Origin: Myxococcales bacterium | Lineage (GTDB): Bacteria; Myxococcota; Myxococcia; Myxococcales; Anaeromyxobacteraceae | Reading direction: 5' to 3' | Assembly (NCBI GenBank): GCA_021784995.1 | Contig: JAJYHA010000256.1 | Location: forward strand, 1 to 8,569 | DNA: 8,569 bases | Translations under genes and position numbers: made by a program | Notes under the pieces: generated by a model | Databases searched by the model: none | Told to the model about the DNA's origin: nothing | What the model saw: the letters and a program-made list of their open reading frames with translations, nothing else | Shown: in pieces, positions 1 through 8,569 of the stretch | Layout of the letters: each line of letters starts with the position of its first letter | Position numbering within the stretch: position 1 is the stretch's first letter

Positions 1-1964
1 ACTGGCTGGCGCGGACCACGCCCGGCGACGGGGTCGAGGTGATCGTCGTCGACGACGCCTCGACCGACGAGACGCCGGCGCTCCTGGCGGAGCTCGGGGG
101 CGCGGTCCGCGTGCTGACGTGCCGCGAGAACGTCGGGTTCGTCGGTGCGTGCAACGGGGGCGCGGCGCTGGCGCGCGGCAAGTACCTCCTCTTCCTCAAC
201 AACGACACCGCTCCCCAGGAGAACTGGCTCACCGCGCTGGTGGACGTCGCCGAGGCGGACCCGGAGGTGGGCGCCGTCGGCGCGCGCCTGGTCTACCCGG
301 ACGGACGGCTCCAGGAGGCGGGCGGCATCGTCTTCTCCGACGGGAGCGGCTGGAACTTCGGCCGCGGCGATCAGCCGTTCCGCCCGCAGTACGATCGCCC
401 GTGCGAGGTCGATTACTGCTCGGGCGCGGCGCTGCTGGTACGCCGCGACCTCTTCGAGCGGCTGGGCGGCTTCGACGTCCGCTACGCGCCGGCCTACTAC
501 GAGGACACCGACCTCTGCTTCGGGATCCGCAGCCTGGGCAAGAAGGTCGTCTACTGCCCGCGCTCGATCGTGGTCCACCACGAGGGCGTCTCCAACGGCA
601 CCAGCCCGGACGGCGGCCTCAAGCGTCACCAGGAGCTCAACCGGCCCCGGTTCGTCGAGAAGTGGCGCGAGGCGCTGCGCGAGCACGAGCCGAGCCCCGC
701 CGTCACCGGGCGCGTCCCCACGACGGCCGACCGGCGCCTGCGGCTCCGCCGTCCCGCCCCGCCGCGGGGGGAGGGCCCGGCCCTCCTGGTCGTCGATCCG
801 TTCATGCCGCTCTTCGATCGCGCCTCCGGCTCGCGCCGGCTCCTGGAGCTCCTGCTGCTGATGCGGAGGCGGCTGGACGCGCGGATCACCTACGTCGCCA
901 GGAACGGGACCGGCCAGGAGGCGTACGAGCGCATCCTCCGGGAGCTGGGGGTGGAGACCTTCCGGGGCGATCCCGACCGGATGCTGGAGTGCGGGTGCCG
1001 GCTGGAGGGCGTCCCGCGCCTCGACCTCCCCGCCCTGCTGGCGGAGCGCCGCTTCGACGTGGCCTGGCTGTCCTTCTGGTACGTCGCCGCGCAGTACGCG
1101 CCGCTGGTCCGGGCGCACGCGCCCCGGACCCGCGTCATCGCCGACTCGGTCGACGTCCACTTCCTGCGCGAGGGCCGGCTGGCGGAGCTGCGAGGGGACG
1201 CCGCCGGGCGGCGCGCGGCCCTCGAGACCCGGCGCCGCGAGCTGGCGGCCTACCGCGCGGCGGACCTGGTGGTGACCGTGACGGAGGCGGACGCGGAGAT
1301 CCTCCGGGCCGCGCAGCTCGACCGGCCCATCGCCGTCGTGCCCAACGTCCACGCGCCCCATCGAGGCCCGATCCCGCCCTGGGGAGCGCGCGCCGGCCTC
1401 CTGTTCGTCGGCGGGTTCGCCCACGGGCCGAACGTGGACGCCGTGCTGTGGTTCCACCGCGAGGTGCTGCCGCACGTCCGCGCGCGGGTTCCGGGCGCGC
1501 GGCTCTTCGTGGTCGGGAGCGCCCCGCCCCCCGAGATCCGGGCCCTGGCCGGCGAGGAGGTCGTCGTCACGGGCCACGTGCCGGACACGGCGCCGTACCT
1601 CGACGCCTGCCGGGTCTCGGTGGCGCCCATCCGATACGGGGCCGGCATGAAGGGCAAGATCGGAGAGGCGCTGGCGCGCGGCCTCCCGGTGGTCACCACC
1701 TCGGCGGGCGCCGAGGGGATGGGCCTGGCGGACGGGGCGCAGGCCCTCGTCGCGGACGATCCACGGGACTTCGCGGAGGCGGTGGCGCGGCTCCACGGCG
1801 ACGAGCGCCTCTGGGCGCGCCTCTCGGACGCCGGGCGTGCGCACGCCGGCGCGTGCTTCTCGCCCGAGGCCGTGCAGGAGCGGCTGGCGGCCCTCCTGCA
1901 GGCGCCGCCCGCCGCCGACCCGGGCCCCGCGTCCTTCAGCCCGCGCGCGGCAACTGCAGCGTGA
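1..1964 (+). CDS. Two-domain glycosyltransferase (GT2 + GT4), 5' partial
   Basis: Probable cell-surface polysaccharide glycosyltransferase that moves sugars from nucleotide-sugar donors to a growing glycan at the inner face of the membrane. The frame is open from base 3, and the residues before the GTG at 39 (ending GVEVIVVDD) already belong to the GT2 fold, so the true start is outside the window. Counting from codon 39, the GT2 domain covers about 1-220, with DDAS (5-8), the metal-binding NND (54-56), EDTDLC (155-160) and HHEG (180-183). After a basic, Pro-rich linker, a GT4/GT-B domain covers about 250-625. It has DSVDVH in its N-terminal half, then VVPNV, LLFVGGFAHGPN and the donor-site stretch GAGMKGKIGEALARGLPVV. 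No membrane segment is visible. The GT2-GT4 arrangement suggests one protein adding two sugars in turn, but substrates cannot be read from sequence. The last 29 bases overlap the convergent kinase gene. Confidence 0.9.
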   Translation, partial: WLARTTPGDGVEVIVVDDASTDETPALLAELGGAVRVLTCRENVGFVGACNGGAALARGKYLLFLNNDTAPQENWLTALVDVAEADPEVGAVGARLVYPDGRLQEAGGIVFSDGSGWNFGRGDQPFRPQYDRPCEVDYCSGAALLVRRDLFERLGGFDVRYAPAYYEDTDLCFGIRSLGKKVVYCPRSIVVHHEGVSNGTSPDGGLKRHQELNRPRFVEKWREALREHEPSPAVTGRVPTTADRRLRLRRPAPPRGEGPALLVVDPFMPLFDRASGSRRLLELLLLMRRRLDARITYVARNGTGQEAYERILRELGVETFRGDPDRMLECGCRLEGVPRLDLPALLAERRFDVAWLSFWYVAAQYAPLVRAHAPRTRVIADSVDVHFLREGRLAELRGDAAGRRAALETRRRELAAYRAADLVVTVTEADAEILRAAQLDRPIAVVPNVHAPHRGPIPPWGARAGLLFVGGFAHGPNVDAVLWFHREVLPHVRARVPGARLFVVGSAPPPEIRALAGEEVVVTGHVPDTAPYLDACRVSVAPIRYGAGMKGKIGEALARGLPVVTTSAGAEGMGLADGAQALVADDPRDFAEAVARLHGDERLWARLSDAGRAHAGACFSPEAVQERLAALLQAPPAADPGPASFSPRAATAA

Positions 1965-3039
1965 AGCGCGCGCCGCCGTCGGGCGCGTCGTCGATGGCGA
2001 TGCTGCCGCCGTGCTGCGTCACGATGGCGTGGACGATCGACAGGCCGAGCCCCGACCCCTGGGCCTTGGTGGTGAAGAAGGGCTCGAAGATCCGGTCGCG
2101 GACCTCCGTCTTCACGCCGGGGCCGCTGTCGTCCACCTGGAGGGTCACCTCCCGCGCGTCGGCCGGCTCCACCCGGCAGGCGACCCGCACCGTCCCCCCG
2201 TCGCCCGCGGCGTCGAGCGCGTTCAGGGCCAGGTTCATCACCACCTGCCGCAGTCGCTCCTCGTCCCCCCGCACCGGCGGGACCTCGCCCAGGTCGCGCA
2301 CCAGCCGGACGTGCCGGCGGTCGGCCTCCCCCTCGAGGAGGTCGAGCACCTTGGTCAGCACCGTCGCCACCTCCACCGCGCGCGGCTGGAAGTCGCGCGG
2401 CCGCGCGAACTGGAGGAAGTCCTCCAGGATGTGGTCGAGGCGACGGATCTCGTCCCGGACCAGGTGGAGCGGCTCGAGCAGCTTCGCCTGCTGGTCGCGG
2501 GCGAGCTTCTGGATGCGCCGCTCGAGGACGGTCAGCTGCAGCGCGGCGGCGTTGAGGGGGTTCCGGATCTCGTGGGAGAGCCCCGCCGTCATGGTCCCGA
2601 CCGCCGCCAGCTTCTCGGCCGTCTGGGCCCGCCGCGACAGCTCGCGCTTCTCGCCGTGCAGGCGCACCTGCCGCATGGCCTGCTCCACCGTGACCAGCAG
2701 CTCCTGGGTGGCGCAGGGCTTGACCAGGTAGGCGCACGCCCCGGCGCGCACCGCGGCCACGGCCGACTCGAGCGTGGCGAAGCCGGTCAACAGCACCACC
2801 TCGCCGTCCGGCGAGGCCTCCTTGAGCTGGGGCGCGAGCGCGGTGCCGTCGCCGTCCGGGAGGCGCAGGTCCACCAGCGCGACGTCGAAGCCCTCGCGCG
2901 CGCCGCGCAGGGCGGCGGCGCAGCTCCCGTGGCCGTGCGCCGAGTAGCCCGCCTCCTCCAGGATCTCGGTGAGGTTCGCGACCAGCGCCGCGTTGTCGTC
3001 GACGATCAGGATGCGCGGGCGTCGGGGGAGCTGGGTCAT
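1936..3039 (-). CDS. REC-histidine kinase (receiver fused to HisKA/HATPase)
   Basis: Soluble 367-residue protein that joins an N-terminal receiver to a histidine kinase. The receiver (about 8-120) has the acidic pair D14/D15, phosphoacceptor D57, T85 and K107-P108. The HisKA helix carries H156 in GLSHEIRNPL. The ATPase domain has the N box N269/N273, DDSGPGV (303-309), FEPFF (318-322) and GSGLGL (328-332), so both halves look active. There is no membrane segment, PAS domain or output domain. The ATG at 3039 overlaps the stop of the preceding REC-REC gene in an ATGA, with no Shine-Dalgarno sequence in front, so translation is probably coupled to that gene. The frame stays open upstream to 3351, but that stretch only shadows the REC-REC gene. 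Receiver-first kinases of this kind usually take a phosphate or receiver signal from another kinase and pass it on; the plausible donor is the globin kinase two genes upstream. Confidence 0.9.
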   Translation of the reverse strand: MTQLPRRPRILIVDDNAALVANLTEILEEAGYSAHGHGSCAAALRGAREGFDVALVDLRLPDGDGTALAPQLKEASPDGEVVLLTGFATLESAVAAVRAGACAYLVKPCATQELLVTVEQAMRQVRLHGEKRELSRRAQTAEKLAAVGTMTAGLSHEIRNPLNAAALQLTVLERRIQKLARDQQAKLLEPLHLVRDEIRRLDHILEDFLQFARPRDFQPRAVEVATVLTKVLDLLEGEADRRHVRLVRDLGEVPPVRGDEERLRQVVMNLALNALDAAGDGGTVRVACRVEPADAREVTLQVDDSGPGVKTEVRDRIFEPFFTTKAQGSGLGLSIVHAIVTQHGGSIAIDDAPDGGARFTLQLPRAG

Positions 3040-3743
3040 GGCGCGGAGGGGCGGGCGCGGTACTGCCGCTCGACCGCGTCGAGCAGCGCCCGCGTGTCGA
3101 AGGGCTTGGGGAAGAGGGCCCGGTAGGGGACCGGGGGCACGTCGTCGAAGGCGGTCGCCACCAGGAGGGGGAGGTCCGGGTAGCGAGACGAGAGGCAGCG
3201 CATGGCGTCGCCGGCGGCGCCGCCCGGCACGCGCATGTCGACCAGGGCGCAGAAGGGGTTCACCGGCCCGAGCCGCTCCGTCTCCGTCAGCGACCCGGCG
3301 GTGATCGCGGCGAACCCGCGGCCGCGGAGCGCCTCGCAGACGTTGTCGCACAGCGCGCGGTCGTCCTCCACCACCACGACCAGGCCGTCGCGCCGCGCCG
3401 CCTGGAGCAGCTCGACCAGGCGCGCGATGGGCACCGGCTTGGGCAGGGTCGCCAGGAGCCCCTCCCGGCGCGCCGCCTCCAGCGCGTCGTCCTGCACGAA
3501 GGCGGTCACGACGATGGCGGCCAGCCCGGGATCGACGTGCCGCACGCGGTGGACCAGCTCGGCGCCGCTCATGAGCGGCATCCGCATGTCGGTGACCAGC
3601 GCGTCGAAGCGCCGGCGCCGCGCGAGCGCCAGCGCCTGCTCGCCGTCGGCGGCCAGCGTCACCTCCTCGCCCAGGTCGCGCAGGATCTCGCCGATGTTCT
3701 CGGCGAAGTCGCGGTTGTCGTCCACCAGGAGGTAGTGGCGCAT
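3036..3743 (-). CDS. Tandem-receiver (REC-REC) response regulator without output domain
   Basis: A 235-residue protein made of two CheY-like receivers. REC1 (about 1-115) has D8/D9, phosphoacceptor D52, T80 and K102-P103. REC2 (about 120-232) has E126/D127/D128, phosphoacceptor D169, T197 and K213-P214. Both are complete, and no DNA-binding, GGDEF or enzymatic domain follows. The gene starts 7 nt after the stop of the globin kinase and has no Shine-Dalgarno sequence, so reinitiation after the kinase gene is likely. From memory, the partner of AfGcHK in Anaeromyxobacter sp. Fw109-5 is a tandem regulator phosphorylated on Asp52 and Asp169, the same positions as here. The role is therefore phosphoacceptor for the globin kinase. 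Where the signal goes next is unknown; the REC-kinase translated from the overlapping gene is the obvious candidate. Confidence 0.93.
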   Translation of the reverse strand: MRHYLLVDDNRDFAENIGEILRDLGEEVTLAADGEQALALARRRRFDALVTDMRMPLMSGAELVHRVRHVDPGLAAIVVTAFVQDDALEAARREGLLATLPKPVPIARLVELLQAARRDGLVVVVEDDRALCDNVCEALRGRGFAAITAGSLTETERLGPVNPFCALVDMRVPGGAAGDAMRCLSSRYPDLPLLVATAFDDVPPVPYRALFPKPFDTRALLDAVERQYRARPSAP

Positions 3744-3750
3744 CGCGCGC

Positions 3751-4887
3751 TCAGGGCGGGAGCCGGACCGTGAAGCAGGCGCCGCCGCGCGGGGAGCGCC
3801 GGTACTCGACGGTCCCGCCGTGCCGCTCGACGATGCGCTTCACCAGCGCCAGGCCCAGCCCGATCCCGTGGCTCTTGGTGGTGATGAGCGGCTCGAAGAG
3901 GCGCCGCTCGACGACGGGGTCCACGCCGGGGCCGGTGTCCTCCACGCTCAGGGCGATCCCCGCCGGCCCGTCCTCGCCGCGCACGGTCACGGCGCCGGCC
4001 GGCGCCGCCGCCTCGAGGGCGTTCCCGAGCAGGTTCACGAGGATCTGCCGGAGCTGGCCCGGGTCGGCGGCGGCCACCAGGCCGGCCAGCCCCTCCGCCG
4101 TGACGGTCACGCCCGGCGGCCGCGAGAGCGACTCGAGCGCCCCGGTGAAGAGCGGCTCCACCTCCACCCGCTCCCGGGTGACGGGCCGGTTGCGGATGAT
4201 GTCGAGCAGGTTGGTGATGATGCCGTTCGCGACGCCGAGCTGGTCGTGGATCCGGTCGAGGTGCTTCACCACGCGCTCGTCCCCGCCCGCGCGCCCGCGC
4301 AGGATGAAGACGGAGCTCTCGATGACGCCGAGCGGGTTGCGGAGATCGTGGCCGATCGACCCGACGAGCTGGCCGAAGGTGCTGAGCCGCTCGGCGCGCG
4401 CCTGCCGGGCCAGCAGGTCCTCGCGGTAGGTGTGCAGCATGATGGCGAGCTCGAGGTCCAGGATCCTGCCCACCGCCCGCCGCGCCCGGCCCAGCGCCGC
4501 CGCGTCGTCGCGGTAGGTCCGCTCGGCGACCGCGTCGAGCTCGCGTCGCACCACGTTCATGGCGCCGAACATGTAGTGCTGCGGCAGGTCGATGCGGACG
4601 TGCTGACGGCCGATGCGCGCCCGTGCCTCGACGTAGGCCTCGTCCCAGGGCCCGCGCAGGAGCGTGTCGAGCCACTGCTGGAGCGTGACCTTCAGGTGTC
4701 CGACCTGCGACTCGCCGCCGGTCAGGGCCCGGCGCGCGCCCTCGTGGCCGAGGATGGTGTCGTAGAACACCGTGGCGATGGCGCCGAACGCAGGCGCGGC
4801 GGGCACGTGCAGGGCCCGCAGGGCCGCCTCGTCCTCGGGGCCCCAGCCGACGTAACGTTTGAGCTCGTCCAGCAAGGCCTCTGACAT
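3751..4887 (-). CDS. Globin-coupled (heme protoglobin) sensor histidine kinase, AfGcHK-like
   Basis: Cytoplasmic oxygen-sensing kinase of 378 residues. The N-terminal protoglobin domain (about 1-160) has Y42 in VFYDTIL as the probable distal (B10) tyrosine and H96 in [11 protein letters not shown] as the proximal heme ligand. The kinase core follows: H180 in GHDLRNPL (autophosphorylation), N box N285/N289, EDTGPGVD (316-323), FEPLITTK and GIGLGL (341-346). As I recall, the characterised AfGcHK uses Tyr45, His99 and His183; all three are offset by exactly 3 here, which points to an ortholog with a slightly shorter N-terminus. In that family, O2 or CO on ferrous heme, or hydroxide or cyanide on ferric heme, turns autophosphorylation on. 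The ATG at 4887 is the only ATG/GTG/TTG in frame after the upstream stop at 4927-4929. The Shine-Dalgarno sequence is poor. The REC-REC gene follows after 7 nt, and an FNR-like box lies 25 nt upstream. Confidence 0.95.
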
Positions 4888-4888
4888 C

Positions 4889-4909
4889 CCGGCATGCTTG
4901 TACCGCCGG
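4889..4909 (-). promoter_or_regulatory. Small hairpin abutting the globin-kinase start codon
   Basis: Arms CCGGC (4889-4893) and GCCGG (4905-4909) pair perfectly around an 11-nt loop. In the mRNA the hairpin ends 1 nt before the ATG at 4887, where the ribosome would bind, and no clear Shine-Dalgarno sequence is present. It could damp initiation. A 5-bp stem can also occur by chance at this GC content. Confidence 0.2.
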
Positions 4910-4911
4910 AC

Positions 4912-4925
4912 TTGTCGCGGATCAA
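4912..4925 (-). promoter_or_regulatory. FNR/CRP-family box candidate upstream of the globin kinase
   Basis: On the minus strand this reads TTGATCCGCGACAA, which matches 8 of 10 defined bases of the FNR/DNR/FixK consensus TTGAT-N4-ATCAA and has one perfect half-site. It lies in the 65-nt gap between the CBS gene and the globin kinase, inside the only AT-rich patch there. Its centre is about 31 nt before the ATG. If transcription starts close to the gene, the site would overlap the core promoter and suit repression better than class II activation. This is inference from one sequence. Confidence 0.4.
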
Positions 4926-4952
4926 TTCATTGGGGCGACCGGCCGAGGGAGA

Positions 4953-5426
4953 TCAGGCCCGGGTCTGCGAGCCGACCGCCTCCGCCACGAGGTCGAGGTC
5001 CTGCACCATGTCGGCCGCGAAGCGCACGAAGTCGGCCTCGGTGATGATCCCGACCAGCGTGCCGTCCTCCTCGCAGATGGGGAGGCACCCGAACTTGTGC
5101 TCCAGCATGACGCGCGCCGCCTGGACCAGCGACGTGGCGGGCCGCACGGAGGTCGGGCTCCGGACCATCACCTCGGCGGCGCTGGTCCGCTTGGGCGGAT
5201 GGCTGGCGGCCGCGCGGAGGAGGTCGCGCTGCGTGACGAGGCCGACCAGCTTCCCGCTCCGGACCACGGGCAGGTGGCGGATGCTGCCCAGCTTGAGCAT
5301 CTGCTCCGCCAGGGCGAGGTCGTCCGACTCCTGGAGCGTGACCAGCTCACGCGTCATGAAGTCGCCCACGGTGATCGACCGGATCCCGGTGCCTTCGGTC
5401 GTGACGGACGGCTCGTGCTGCTGCAT
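4953..5426 (-). CDS. Two-CBS-domain protein
   Basis: Small cytoplasmic protein of 157 residues made almost only of a pair of CBS motifs (a Bateman module), which normally binds AMP, ATP, S-adenosylmethionine or a related nucleotide to sense energy state. CBS1 runs about 20-75 (GDFMTRELVTL to LVGLVTQRDLL) and CBS2 about 84-140 (AEVMVRSPTSV to LVGIITEADFV). Both keep the Thr-x-x-Asp ligand-contact motif (T65/D68 and T129/D132), so both sites may bind ligand. There is no effector domain, signal peptide or membrane segment. The ATG at 5426 is chosen because GAGAGGTG stands 5 nt before it; a longer reading from 5495 adds residues that do not look like a CBS protein. The gene lies between the stress-protein gene and the globin kinase on the same strand. 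Proteins of this type often accompany Usp genes in oxygen- or energy-stress regulons; its partner here is unknown. Confidence 0.9.
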   Translation of the reverse strand: MQQHEPSVTTEGTGIRSITVGDFMTRELVTLQESDDLALAEQMLKLGSIRHLPVVRSGKLVGLVTQRDLLRAAASHPPKRTSAAEVMVRSPTSVRPATSLVQAARVMLEHKFGCLPICEEDGTLVGIITEADFVRFAADMVQDLDLVAEAVGSQTRA

Positions 5427-5431
5427 GCGCG

Positions 5432-5439
5432 CACCTCTC
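5432..5439 (-). promoter_or_regulatory. Ribosome binding site fixing the CBS start
   Basis: The minus strand reads GAGAGGTG followed by 5 nt and ATG. It supports the start at 5426 over the longer in-frame ATG at 5495. Confidence 0.7.
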
Positions 5440-5536
5440 GGACGGACGCTCGGATGCTGCCACGTTCCGGGGCCGAGGGCGAGCGGCCACCCCACCCCGG
5501 GCGAGGAGTGCGGGTGCGCGGGGGTGTGGGATGAAG

Positions 5537-5554
5537 CGCCTGCGCGATCAGGCG
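5537..5554 (-). terminator. Weak hairpin at the end of the universal stress gene
   Basis: CGCCTG (5537-5542) and CAGGCG (5549-5554) form a perfect 6-bp stem with a 6-nt loop spanning the usp stop codon (5548-5550). No T-run follows on the minus strand, so this is at best a partial terminator between usp and the CBS gene. Confidence 0.25.
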
Positions 5555-5985
5555 TGCCGCGGCTCGTGCGCCACCAGCACCGGCTTCGAGCTGATGTGCA
5601 CCAGGCGGCCGCTCACCGACCCGAGCAGGGCTCGGGCCACCGTGCCCCGGCCACGGCTCCCCACGACGACCATCCCGACGTCGCTCGCGGCGGCTGCCTC
5701 GGCGAGCATCTCGGCCGGCGGCCCCACCAGGACCACCGAGTCGATCTCCACGCCCGAGGCGGCCAGGCGCGCGGCCGCCTCGCCGAGGAGCTTGCGGGCG
5801 AACTGCTCGTGCTCCTCCTCCACCTCGGCCGTGGTGAGGCCGTATGCGTCGGGGGGCAGGAGGAGCGGCGCCACGGAGTAGGCGAGGGTCAGGCGGGCGC
5901 CGAAGCGCAGCGCGATCTCCGCCGCGAGCCGCGCCGCCTCGTTCGACGCCTCCGATCCATCCACCCCGACGAGGATTCGCTTCAT
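5548..5985 (-). CDS. Universal stress protein, ATP-binding UspA type
   Basis: A single Usp domain of 145 residues, the usual length. It opens with MKRILVGVDGSE (D9 at the nucleotide pocket). Near the end it has the full ATP motif G-2x-G-9x-G-S, with G109, G112, G122 and S123 in VVGSRGRGTVARALLGS, so it belongs to the ATP-binding branch (MJ0577 type) rather than the non-binding E. coli UspA branch. The C-terminal strand SKPVLVAHEP is typical. It is soluble and probably dimeric. The ATG at 5985 has GGAGGTG (5991-5997) 5 nt upstream. It is the first of five co-oriented genes leading to the globin kinase, with 121 nt to the CBS gene, and is divergent from a second CBS gene. Usp and CBS genes are often induced together when oxygen or energy falls; that role here is inferred from context. 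Confidence 0.94.
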   Translation of the reverse strand: MKRILVGVDGSEASNEAARLAAEIALRFGARLTLAYSVAPLLLPPDAYGLTTAEVEEEHEQFARKLLGEAAARLAASGVEIDSVVLVGPPAEMLAEAAAASDVGMVVVGSRGRGTVARALLGSVSGRLVHISSKPVLVAHEPRHA

Positions 5986-6228
5986 GGCGGCACCTCCGCA
6001 CCCGAGACGTAAAAGAGGGACACCGTGCGCGCAACGGCGCGGCGAGCCCCATGATCATGCGCCTCGCGTGACTCCGCCGGCTGCGGCCAGATGTCCCACC
6101 GACTCCTGACCGGGGCAGGGCGCCCGGCCGGCAATTCACCTCTTCGGTGGTCCGCCCGCCCTCGCATGGCAAGGCTGGCCCGGCGCCTGTAAGTTGCAGG
6201 GACCAGCGAGGGCCAGGAGGCGAGCGAC
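5986..6228. promoter_or_regulatory. Divergent promoter region between usp and the Cys-CBS gene
   Basis: A 243-nt gap between divergent genes that must hold promoters for both. It contains the ribosome binding sites of usp (5991-5997) and of the CBS gene (AGGAGG, 6215-6220) and a perfect 10-bp palindrome CATGATCATG (6050-6059) near the usp side. I could not assign convincing -35/-10 or -24/-12 elements, and I see no FNR-type half-sites (TTGAT or ATCAA) here. Confidence 0.5.
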
Positions 6229-6885
6229 ATGGGCACGACGGACATCCGGGGTGACGGCGCGGGCCGCGGGCGAGACCTGCCGGTGATGACGCTCGAGGTG
6301 CTGACCGGGGAGGGGCGGCTCACGTTCGCCTCGGTGCTCTGCCCCAAGGAGCGGCGCGCGAGGACCATCGAGGAGTGCGCACCCTGTGTCGACGGCGGCG
6401 GGCCGGTGACGGATCCGGGCGCCCGCGACGGCTTCCTGGCCTGCGAGGCCCGCCTCCCGGCCGATCCACGGGACGCCTCCCGGTCGTGGCCCGACGCGAC
6501 GCCCGTGACGGCCGTCATGACGCGGGCCGTGCTGGCGGTGACCGGCGAGGTGCCGCTGCGGGAGGCGCGTTCCCGGATCGTCCGGCACGAGCTGGAGGGG
6601 CTCCCCGTCGTCGATCGCTCCGGTCGGCCGGTCGGCCTCCTGGGGCCCGCGGAACTCCTCCGGGCCGGCGAGGGAGGCTGCGTCGCGGACGCGATGAGCC
6701 GCCGCGTGATCGGCGTCGCCGAGACGGCGCCGCTCTCGGAGGTGGCGGCGCTCATGGCGACCGAGGGCGCCTCCCTGGTTCCCGTGCTCTCCCGCGAGGG
6801 GCGCGTGGTCGGGCTGGTGACGGCGCTGGATCTGGTGCGCTGGCTGGCGGATCGAGAGGGCAGCGGCCCGCGTCCGCTTCCCTGA
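6229..6885 (+). CDS. CBS-pair protein with a four-cysteine N-terminal region
   Basis: A 218-residue soluble protein. The N-terminal part (about 20-75) holds four cysteines: C38 in VLCP, C50 and C53 in ECAPC, and C72 in LACEA. The spacing C-x11-C-x2-C-x18-C could bind zinc or an Fe-S centre. A CBS pair follows: CBS1 about 92-146 and CBS2 about 153-208. The Thr-x-x-Asp ligand motif is kept in CBS2 (T198/D201) but replaced by G139/E142 in CBS1, so probably only one nucleotide site works. The ATG at 6229 has AGGAGG 8 nt upstream. From memory, similar Cys-plus-CBS proteins occur in Deltaproteobacteria, but the N-terminal domain has no function I can name. The position, divergent from usp and convergent with tatA among oxygen-sensing genes, makes a redox- or metal-modulated energy sensor reasonable, as inference. 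Confidence 0.88.
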   Translation: MGTTDIRGDGAGRGRDLPVMTLEVLTGEGRLTFASVLCPKERRARTIEECAPCVDGGGPVTDPGARDGFLACEARLPADPRDASRSWPDATPVTAVMTRAVLAVTGEVPLREARSRIVRHELEGLPVVDRSGRPVGLLGPAELLRAGEGGCVADAMSRRVIGVAETAPLSEVAALMATEGASLVPVLSREGRVVGLVTALDLVRWLADREGSGPRPLP

Positions 6886-7177: not shown

Positions 7178-7834
7178 TCAGGCGCTGACGTCTTCCGTCG
7201 CGATGGAGGCCAGGCGGCGGGGATCGAGCACGCGCACCCCGCGCGAGGCGTCGAGGACGCCCTCGCGCTCCAGCCTGGTCAGGCAGCGCGAGAGCGTCTC
7301 GGGGCGCATCCCGAGGAGGCGCGCGACCACCTGCTTGCGCACCGCGTTGGGCCGCTCGGCCAGGAAGCGTGCGTTGTCGAGCGCGAAGCGGGCCACGCGC
7401 GCCACGCAGTCGCCCTGCCGGTAGGTCACCTCGTCGCGCTGCAGCTTGCCCTCGCCGAGCACCAGGTCGAGCACGGCGCGCGCGGGGCTGCGGTCCGGTC
7501 CCACCCAGGCGCTCATCTGGTCTCCGGCGATCCCGCACAGCTTCACGCGGGAGAGCGCGCGCACCTCATAGGGCGACGGATCGCCGCGCAGGGCCTCGGT
7601 GCAGAGCAGCGCGTTCGGGCCGCGCAGCGTCAGCAGGACCTCGCTGCCCCGCGGGCTCACCGCCGAGAGCGAGACGAACCCCTCCTTCACGAAGTACACG
7701 GTCCGCGGCCGCTCTCCCTGGGCACAGAGCGTCGCGCCGGAGTCGCGCGCGGCGGGGGTGAAGCGGCACTTTCCCTGCGATGCCGCGCCGAGCGTGCAGG
7801 CCGTGCAGTCATTGATGGGTGCAGCCGAAAGCAC
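7178..7834 (-). CDS. FNR-type transcription regulator (Crp/Fnr family) with candidate Fe-S cysteines
   Basis: A 218-residue dimeric DNA-binding regulator. The N-terminus has C10, C13 and C23 (DCTAC...GKC), followed by the cNMP-like beta barrel (about 30-120) and C100 in VKLCGI. This resembles E. coli FNR (C20, C23, C29 and C122), which holds an oxygen-labile [4Fe-4S] cluster. The C-terminal Crp-type helix-turn-helix (about 160-200) has recognition helix PETLSRCL with E179, S182 and R183, the E-x-x-S-R signature that reads TTGAT half-sites. The likely role is a cytoplasmic oxygen sensor controlling anaerobic genes; nitrosative sensing is an alternative. The start is GTG at 7834, because GGAGGT precedes it by 4 nt and no in-frame ATG exists upstream of the cysteine cluster. 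It is divergent from mobB, with FNR-like sites between them, and followed by tatA, so autoregulation and control of both neighbours are plausible. Confidence 0.92.
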
Positions 7835-7873: not shown

Positions 7874-7883
7874 ATTGCATCAG
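7871..7883. repeat. CTGAT-N3-ATCAG inverted repeat in the regulator/mobB gap
   Basis: A perfect 5-bp inverted repeat around TGC. The half-sites resemble FNR half-sites, but the spacer is 3 nt instead of the usual 4, so it may be a variant operator for the adjacent regulator or chance. It overlaps the weak TTGAT site by 3 nt. Confidence 0.35.
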
Positions 7884-7926
7884 CCAGGCCCGCGTTTTTC
7901 AGCCTCGTTCGTGCACAGGTTGCGTT

Positions 7927-7940
7927 TTGCCCGCGATCAA
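7927..7940 (+). promoter_or_regulatory. FNR/CRP-family box candidate upstream of mobB
   Basis: TTGCCCGCGATCAA matches 8 of 10 defined bases of TTGAT-N4-ATCAA, with a perfect right half-site. Its centre is about 73 nt before the mobB ATG at 8007. A class II activation site (centre near -41.5) would put transcription start near 7975, leaving a leader of about 32 nt, which is reasonable. Confidence 0.4.
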
Positions 7941-8006
7941 GCCGACCGGTACGCAAGGTTTGCGATGGCGCCGCGCAGCAGGAGAAGGGCATGCGGGGCC
8001 CATGAC

Positions 8007-8569
8007 ATGATGCGCCACGTGAGCCGCCGTGAGCGCGCGCGCATCCTCGTCTTCTCCGGTCCGAGCGGGGCGGGGAAGACGACCGTCCTGGTGCGGCTCA
8101 TCCCGAAGCTGGTCGCGCGCGGCCTGCGCGTGGCGGCGCTGAAGCGCTCGGGCCACCGCCACGGGTTCGACCGGCCGGGCAAGGACAGCGCGCGCCTCCG
8201 CCGCGCCGGCGCACTGGCGGTGGCGCTCCAGGGCCCCGCCGAGCTGGCGTGGTTTGGACCCCCACGGGACGGCGGCGCGCGGGAGCTGGCGCGGCTCCTC
8301 CCTCGGGTCGACCTGGTCCTGGCGGAGGGGTTCCGCGAGGAGCGGATCGCCCGGGTGGAGGTGCACCGCGCCGCGGTCTCCGGCGCCTTCCTCTGCGCGC
8401 GCGATCGGGACGTGATCGCCGTGGTGGGCGACGAGGAGCCGCCGCGCCCGTTGCCGTGGTTCACGTTCCGTGAATCCGACGCCCTGGCCGACTTCGTGGC
8501 CCGGTTCGCCGCGGGAGCGCGCCGGCCGCCGGCGCGCGACGCGCGGAGGAGGGGCGGCCGGCGAGCGCC
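8007..8569 (+). CDS. mobB: MobB, molybdopterin-guanine dinucleotide biosynthesis GTP-binding adapter, 3' partial
   Basis: P-loop GTPase that assists MobA in attaching GMP to molybdopterin, making the guanine-dinucleotide cofactor of DMSO-reductase-family enzymes such as nitrate reductases. Counting from the ATG at 8007, Walker A is GPSGAGKTT (18-26). The MobB signature KRSGHRHGFDRPGKDS spans 46-61, with the GKDS that follows the His-rich loop. DLVLAEGFRE (102-111) and VEVHR complete the family pattern. Two adjacent in-frame ATGs (8007, 8010) exist, with only a weak GGGG upstream; an in-frame ATG at 7965 would add 14 residues. The frame is still open at the right edge after 187 codons, already beyond the usual 160-175. 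The last 20 or so residues are an Arg/Ala/Pro-rich tail encoded by a GC-rich palindrome. Divergent from an FNR-type regulator, which suits a gene needed for anaerobic respiration. Confidence 0.92.
   Translation, partial: MMRHVSRRERARILVFSGPSGAGKTTVLVRLIPKLVARGLRVAALKRSGHRHGFDRPGKDSARLRRAGALAVALQGPAELAWFGPPRDGGARELARLLPRVDLVLAEGFREERIARVEVHRAAVSGAFLCARDRDVIAVVGDEEPPRPLPWFTFRESDALADFVARFAAGARRPPARDARRRGGRRA
8517..8537. repeat. GC-rich near-perfect palindrome in the mobB tail
   Basis: Arms GCGCGCCGGC (8517-8526) and GCCGGCGCGC (8528-8537) are perfect 10-bp inverted repeats around a single base. A strong hairpin could form in the mRNA. It lies in the low-complexity Arg/Ala/Pro-coding end of the frame. 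Confidence 0.5.

Follow-up and report, generated by a model that had tools for sequence, protein, structure and literature searches.

Introduction

Oxygen depletion is sensed in Myxococcus xanthus by the Nmp system (Mxan_4240 and 4244-4246, NmpRSTU), which consists of the protoglobin kinase NmpU, the two-receiver protein NmpT, the receiver (REC)-kinase NmpS, and the NtrC-like output protein NmpR (PMC6211767, PMC11841059). In the phosphotransfer analyses reported for this system, NmpU phosphorylated receiver 1 of NmpT and the receiver of NmpS, NmpS phosphorylated only NmpR, and the isolated receiver 2 of NmpT was not phosphorylated by NmpU in vitro (PMC6211767). Here, we analyzed an 8,569-nucleotide (nt) contig of a Myxococcales bacterium of the family Anaeromyxobacteraceae (JAJYHA010000256.1, assembly GCA_021784995.1; the whole stretch is hereafter called the window), which very probably carries the part of the Nmp system of an Anaeromyxobacter-like bacterium that senses and relays the signal, namely nmpU, nmpT, and nmpS.

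The published genetics place the output under double-negative control. In strains without nmpU, NmpR is on; deleting nmpS or nmpR is epistatic to this loss; and NmpS D59A has a higher in vitro activity than the wild-type protein and brings motility back in vivo (PMC6211767). The scheme amounts to a branched double-negative switch. In the authors' model, the presence of oxygen keeps NmpU active and NmpS inactive; they report failing to demonstrate the inhibition of NmpS in vitro (section 13), and describe the role of NmpT as unclear, suggesting a sink or buffer (PMC6211767). NmpR is a sigma54-dependent NtrC-type activator that binds DNA, and its M. xanthus regulon includes CBS and universal stress protein (USP) family members (PMC11841059). 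All of the Nmp homologues are reported for Anaeromyxobacter sp. Fw109-5, where nmpR lies beside nmpS in the opposite orientation and a dual CBS gene is located upstream (PMC11841059). A more distant parallel is the LvrA-LvrB pair of Leptospira, in which LvrB, like NmpS, is a soluble REC-kinase whose receiver puts it under the control of another kinase; LvrB, however, is activated by receiver phosphorylation, whereas NmpS is modelled as inhibited, and the partner of LvrB is the anti-sigma factor LvrC instead of NmpR (PMC13269768).

The nmpU, nmpT, and nmpS genes of the window

The three genes are as follows (aa, amino acids):

3751..4887, minus strand: nmpU orthologue (AfGcHK-like), 378 aa, with Pfam Protoglobin (3.4e-32), HisKA, and HATPase_c
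3036..3743, minus strand: nmpT orthologue, REC-REC, 235 aa, with D52 and D169 (Pfam Response_reg)
1936..3039, minus strand: nmpS orthologue, REC-HisKA-HATPase_c, 367 aa, with D57 and H156 (Pfam Response_reg, HisKA, and HATPase_c)

An earlier sequence-only reading of this DNA had described three packed genes with intact phosphotransfer residues and without any output domain, and these points were borne out. The gap between nmpU and nmpT is 7 nt (3744-3750), nmpT and nmpS overlap by an ATGA (3036-3039), the residues D52 and D169 (NmpT) and D57 and H156 (NmpS) are in place, and Pfam (E <= 0.001) detected no output domain in NmpU, NmpT, or NmpS. At the same threshold, no Hpt family was found among the matches of the nine main open reading frames. 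The mechanically called frame of nmpS begins at GTG 3351, but ATG 3039, which lies in the ATGA overlap, is the better start. Receiver 2 of NmpT gave no separate Pfam stretch, and its catalytic residues are nonetheless present. NmpS combines an N-terminal REC with HisKA and HATPase_c, as judged from both Pfam and PDB matches, and no membrane segment was seen by eye.

The AfGcHK-like nature of the oxygen-sensing kinase likewise held, since it contains a Protoglobin domain and is 68% identical to P0113, a sensor kinase of Anaeromyxobacter sp. Fw109-5 that, judged from the organism, is presumably AfGcHK itself. Its globin matches PDB 5ohe, a "globin-coupled histidine kinase". H180 (the phospho-histidine), H96, and F41-Y42 were invariant in 12 aligned homologues, and the heme-pocket residues Y42 and H96 were kept in 30 of 30 NmpU-type globins as well as in 20 of 20 globins of the fusion proteins described below; given the M. 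xanthus H96A mutant (PMC11841059), H96 is presumably the heme ligand, and Y42 presumably the distal residue. In a kinase tree of 78 rows, the window NmpS fell into a starred set of six Anaeromyxobacter-type NmpS rows, inside a 51-row side of NmpS and fusion proteins, and the NmpU rows formed a separate side (100/100).

The first two members do represent a described pair, AfGcHK and the REC-REC partner of Fw109-5, as the earlier reading had recognized. Its view of the REC-kinase as the less explored third member did not hold, as a 2018 study had already purified and mutated NmpS and assigned it its position in the pathway (PMC6211767). The window resembles the M. xanthus locus in its three proteins, their U-T-S order, the invariant residues, and the CBS and USP types of its neighbors, and differs from it in that nmpR is not beside nmpS and that a sigma70-like pattern stands upstream of nmpU instead of an NmpR/sigma54 module. 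With Fw109-5 it shares, besides the globin kinase, the dual CBS gene upstream, whereas nmpR of Fw109-5 is convergent and beside nmpS (PMC11841059). The window is thus an ordinary member of an already known system, to which it adds one genome lineage, and the globin-NmpS fusions met in the course of the analysis are the interesting by-product.

Conservation of the genes and loss of NmpT

We examined 24 genomes of the Anaeromyxobacteraceae (the family of RBG_16_69_14, G001), and detected NmpU in 23 and NmpS in all 24 (E <= 1e-110), NmpT in 20 (E <= 1e-30), and NmpR in 22 (E <= 1e-180). The three genes stand in the order U-T-S on one contig in 19 of the 24, the conservation that the sequence-only reading had proposed to check, and the arrangement is therefore more than chance. 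That reading had also allowed for a REC-kinase not conserved beside the pair; NmpS was present in all 24 family genomes, and NmpT, not NmpS, is the member most often missing. In two genomes, the NmpT match covers only residues 2-119 (G019) or 1-143 (G024), and in three others nmpU stands beside nmpS without nmpT (G005, G015, and G023). G016 is split between contigs after nmpT, and in G020 nmpS lies at a contig end and no NmpU was detected. nmpR is convergent with nmpS, at a distance of 26-1714 bp, in 21 of the 22 genomes with nmpR, and in G001 it lies on another contig. The two genomes without an NmpR match are G017 (apparently locus L035, where nmpR is cut by the contig end) and G014 (where the contig ends inside nmpS). 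As a separate observation, G001 contains four NmpU-like kinases, one of them partial, with one NmpS, NmpT, and NmpR each at the thresholds applied, and may be a mixed assembly.

A wider set of 73 loci was reduced to 67 by setting aside four with a distant NmpU (< 50%) and two fusions. nmpS was directly downstream in 61 of them, three ended at a contig edge, and three had room but no nmpS (L032, L046, and L061). Among the 61 loci, NmpT was full in 55 (including L033, with an internal deletion of about 40 residues), short in three (L005, L058, and L059), and absent in three (L011, L038, and L060). The loss of NmpT fits an accessory role, a sink or buffer as the M. xanthus authors suggest, and argues against an obligatory NmpT step. 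The phosphoacceptor aspartate is kept in 55 of 55 first receivers and in 54 of 55 second receivers, the remaining row being a gap; because of this conservation, receiver 2 is probably phosphorylated by some kinase.

The fetched stretch contained nmpR in 50 of the 61 loci. A convergent nmpR stood within 1.8 kb in 28 loci and 2.4-7.3 kb away in 11; in the others it lay on the upstream side of nmpU, with the same orientation in eight (all Corallococcus by title) and on the other strand in three. At >= 68% identity, nmpR was not found in 11 loci. In six of these, the sequence following nmpS is < 1.2 kb long, and near several of the other five there is a 55-58% identical relative.

Across 147 genomes of the class, where 10-19 candidates were scored per genome, the lists of matches were truncated, and absences are softer than in the family searches and in those of G025 and G026, we found matches to NmpU, NmpS, or a fusion in 115, to NmpR in 111, and to NmpT in 102. 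NmpU/NmpS and NmpR occurred together in 107 genomes, NmpU/NmpS only in eight, NmpR only in four, and neither in 28; since the genomes are related, these counts are not independent events, and the Fisher p of 8e-19 is overstated. An NmpT match at 1e-36 was lacking in 13 of the 115 genomes, two of which are the fusion genomes. Six genomes with NmpU/NmpS and no NmpR at 1e-190 (G081-G084, G136, and G137), and four with NmpR and no NmpU, NmpS, or fusion match (G048, G096, G097, and G132), may hold diverged partners.

Probable displacement of nmpR

In the window, the place after nmpS where most relatives have nmpR is taken by a different gene within the remaining 1.9 kb:

39..1964, plus strand: glycosyltransferase gene, convergent with nmpS (Pfam Glycos_transf_2 and Glyco_trans_1_4); overlaps the nmpS end by 29 bp and is open at the window edge, with its frame running from base 3

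This gene was matched in only two of the 24 family genomes (E <= 1e-80). RBG_16_69_14 (G001, locus L001), the closest family genome by both NmpS (84%) and NmpT (75%), has a NeuB-family gene after nmpS (L001:13463-14225), and its nmpR, on another contig, is accompanied on the 3' side by glycosyltransferase, DegT-type aminotransferase, nucleotidyltransferase, and epimerase genes (L164; L165:3-1406). From these arrangements, we infer that the window organism has an nmpR that has become detached from nmpS, probably with glycan-biosynthesis genes lying as an island between the two. An island inserted between nmpS and nmpR is the simplest reading, with no single contig showing both ends. The output gene of an Nmp system can thus be moved away, and a relay that looks like an "orphan" may still have an output. 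On L165, an NmpR-type site pair with the 14-bp spacing of M. xanthus was also noted on the minus strand near 2876, followed by a poor sigma54-like site and lying upstream of genes on the nmpR side of RBG_16_69_14.

Probable signalling mechanism and alternative explanations

By analogy with M. xanthus and Fw109-5, the system of the window organism would operate as follows. When oxygen is bound, NmpU would autophosphorylate and serve as the phosphate donor for both receiver 1 of NmpT and the NmpS receiver, the latter of which, once phosphorylated, would keep the NmpS kinase off. When oxygen falls, NmpU would stop, and NmpS would autophosphorylate and then phosphorylate an NmpR encoded elsewhere in the genome. 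Experiments in M. xanthus or Fw109-5 have demonstrated that the first kinase depends on oxygen or heme, and have established the phosphotransfer specificities, the epistatic relations, and the binding of NmpR to DNA (PMC6211767, PMC11841059). The sequence-only reading had offered an "outputless" multi-step or branched relay with its end point elsewhere; the branched form and the distant end point agree with M. xanthus NmpRSTU, the linear multi-step form is disfavored, and the system would not be outputless, its end point being the known sigma54 activator NmpR.

We also compared the specificity helices of the receivers, taken by our own choice as the 17 columns after the acidic pair, with identities calculated within the same locus. 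As a mean of 39 loci, receiver 1 of NmpT and the NmpS receiver were 49% identical, receiver 1 of NmpT and NmpR 24%, and the NmpS receiver and NmpR 26%, in agreement with the published M. xanthus pattern.

Several observations weigh against a simple transfer of the M. xanthus scheme to the window. First, the analysis covered 8,569 nt of the window organism, and these contain no nmpR gene. Second, the specificity helices of the window itself discriminate poorly, with 35% identity for receiver 1 of NmpT and NmpS, 18% for receiver 1 and NmpR, and 35% for NmpS and NmpR (the A. oryzae NmpR serving for comparison). Third, autoregulation differs: upstream of nmpU and on its strand, 10 of 11 Myxococcaceae loci carry a module in which two NmpR sites (each with <= 1 mismatch, at a distance of 5-50 bp) precede a sigma54-like site (<= 3 mismatches), whereas none of the 18 Anaeromyxobacter-type loci, the window included, carries it there. 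Fourth, the family genome closest by NmpU is G011 (71%), where nmpR is 80 bp from nmpS, which loosens the tie of the window to the glycan island. Finally, LvrB, the best-studied REC-kinase, is switched on by receiver phosphorylation (PMC13269768), and the sign of the NmpS step is therefore not settled by kinship.

The last point leads to the best-surviving alternative, which we consider improbable: NmpS would be activated, like LvrB, when NmpU phosphorylates its receiver, and the published genetics would reflect a phosphatase activity of the unphosphorylated forms. The two kinases have the same REC-kinase architecture, and residues 54-364 of NmpS are matched by LvrB chains (1.4e-26). However, the higher activity of D59A in vitro, its restoration of motility, and the activation of NmpR upon loss of NmpU, all reported for M. 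xanthus (PMC6211767), speak for inhibition. Less probable still is a linear relay in which the phosphate would have to travel from NmpU via NmpT to reach NmpS. It would account for the intact aspartates of all receivers, including receiver 2 of NmpT, but no histidine phosphotransfer domain was found in the nine main open reading frames, the M. xanthus NmpU phosphorylates the NmpS receiver directly, NmpS is reported to phosphorylate neither NmpT receiver (PMC6211767), and the NmpT losses and truncations among the 61 loci (three each) left both neighbors in place. Least of all do we favor a decaying system that has lost its output in the window lineage, since the absence of nmpR from the 1.9 kb after nmpS and the 3.7 kb upstream, and of an NmpR match (E <= 1e-190) from eight of the 115 genomes with NmpU, NmpS, or a fusion, is countered by the intactness of all three genes, by the 84% identity of NmpS to relatives having nmpR, by the NmpR of RBG_16_69_14, 92% identical to that of A. 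oryzae, and by G017, one of the eight, whose cut nmpR lies 85 bp from nmpS.

Putative promoter of nmpU

The M. xanthus nmpU promoter contains pairs of GCGCA-N5-TGCGC, bound by NmpR, upstream of a sigma54 site (PMC11841059). We did not treat such a promoter as defining the system, as Fw109-5 is counted by those authors as having it. Over whole loci, the module search gave 19 hits in Myxococcaceae (the palindromic sites causing some to be counted twice) against 0.00 in shuffled sequences, and three against 0.33 in the Anaeromyxobacter-type loci. A version with 400 bp and a single site was positive in 8 of 11 Myxococcaceae loci, and in 1 of 11 loci in a group made up of the window plus ten relatives. 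Within the window, NmpR sites with <= 2 mismatches (27 against 24.5 expected) and sigma54 sites (two against 1.84 expected) gave no signal. The site preference of NmpR itself probably did not change between the groups, because the last ~20 residues of the helix-turn-helix are nearly the same in L012 and L039.

Instead, the Anaeromyxobacter-type loci share another pattern in front of nmpU, represented in the window by:

4897..4925, minus strand: putative sigma70-type promoter of nmpU, TTGATC-N17-TACAAG (pattern match)

The pattern was first noticed by eye and counted afterwards. A sigma70-like pair within 5 mismatches was found in 17 of 18 Anaeromyxobacter-type loci (2.1 expected) and in 0 of 17 Myxococcaceae-type loci (2.8 expected), and the best -35/-10 pair starts 35-41 bases before the ATG in 16 of the 18 nmpU genes. 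A stricter generic promoter scan of window positions 1850-6300 listed no promoter, the copy above included. These patterns suggest that nmpU expression would be independent of NmpR in the Anaeromyxobacteraceae. An FNR-type box, TTGAT-N4-ATCAA with 2 mismatches, was also noted at 4911-4924 of the window and, with those of L001 and L002, occurs in three of 18 loci (0.28 expected); it overlaps the putative -35 element and most relatives are without it, and it was set aside unexplained.

Globin-NmpS fusion proteins

In two loci of the wider set, an NmpS-type kinase is fused directly to a protoglobin, which apparently takes the place of the receiver (L068:5216-6382 and L071:9992-11176). The kinase parts are 57-60% identical to that of the window NmpS, and about a third to that of the window NmpU. 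A protein search with L071 gave 6042 matches, of which the best 120 were examined (the fusions being found in part among P0241-P0311): 65 combine an NmpS-type kinase (>= 50%) with a globin that is nearly complete, and another 13 are incomplete. In 20 others the kinase is NmpS-like but more distant, in several cases with a PAS domain, and the remaining 22 are of the NmpU type. In the kinase tree, which has no outgroup and from which 9 of 31 chosen fusion rows were dropped for motif mismatch, the fusions lie among the NmpS rows, and the starred branches force at least three changes of the fusion label. Three separate joins would be the plain reading, helped by the differing junction lengths; the distribution may also reflect one gain and two losses. 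The globin tree was poorly resolved, with starred branches forcing only one change, two rows skipped, and the bootstrap not settled.

Among the 147 class genomes, only G025 and G026 gave a fusion-grade match (> 400 bits; the next was 304). Both also encode NmpR (73 and 77% identical to the A. oryzae NmpR), with a second NmpR at 59% in G025. No other match to NmpU (1e-40) or NmpS (1e-70) was found in either genome, both being metagenome-assembled genomes of unstated completeness, and G025 gave no NmpT match at 1e-36, with G026 counted among the negatives that were not listed singly. In L071, a USP-like gene (41%) separates the fusion from nmpR, which is located 2.7 kb upstream, and in G026 the fusion and nmpR are on different contigs.

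The linker between globin and kinase differs between the two types of protein. NmpU-type proteins have 31 residues in 114 of 114 resolvable cases (of 120), and among the 65 fusions the linker is 26 residues in 57 (43 counted by script and 14 read by eye), 33 in two, 39 in two, 37 in one, 51 in one, and unresolved in one; one fusion (P0319) has the NmpU length of 31. AlphaFold models of NmpU and the L071 fusion (pTM 0.52 and 0.47; low pLDDT of 46-52 around the NmpU junction) suggest one continuous helix from globin to kinase in both. Engineered kinases are reported to flip sign when such a linker changes length (PMC11164954). If NmpR still serves low oxygen in the fusion lineages, oxygen must switch the fusion kinase off, the reverse of its effect on NmpU. 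We therefore tentatively consider that NmpU-NmpT-NmpS may be a removable adaptor, and that in several myxobacterial lineages the fusion may provide a one-kinase system from globin-NmpS kinase to NmpR with its oxygen polarity reversed through linker length. Already doubtful, this idea was marked down slightly further, because most but not all of the fusions show the shift in register, and a register by itself does not prove a polarity. If it were true, both polarities would be built from the same globin and the same output, and the sign of the NmpS step could be tested by comparison.

In searches of open-access PMC listings, we found no report of NmpT loss, of the sigma70-like nmpU promoter, or of globin-NmpS fusions; the legend of supplementary Fig. 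S2 in PMC6211767 mentions divergent domain architectures, and the figure may show some of these results. The questions raised in PMC6211767, namely the role of NmpT and the inhibition through the NmpS receiver, could be tested directly with the natural NmpT-less strains and with globin-NmpS fusions beside NmpR.

Neighboring genes of the window

Two further genes precede nmpU on the same strand:

4953..5426, minus strand: dual CBS-domain protein, upstream of nmpU (Pfam CBS, two stretches)
5548..5985, minus strand: USP gene (Pfam Usp, 2e-33)

The Pfam scan of the CBS gene was made on the longer frame 4953-5495, and its start at 5426 was chosen by eye. A dual CBS gene is the same neighbor in L001, L003, L005, L006, L008, L039, and L073, and the USP gene in 10 Anaeromyxobacter-type loci. 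Rfam and tRNA scans of the whole window gave no matches, and one terminator-like hairpin (0.4 expected) was located at 6020-6040 on the minus strand, just before the USP gene. Near the USP-CBS-nmpUTS cluster, the window also encodes a second CBS-pair protein (6229-6885, plus strand), a Crp/FNR-type regulator (7178-7834, minus strand), and a MobB-type gene (7875-8567, plus strand).

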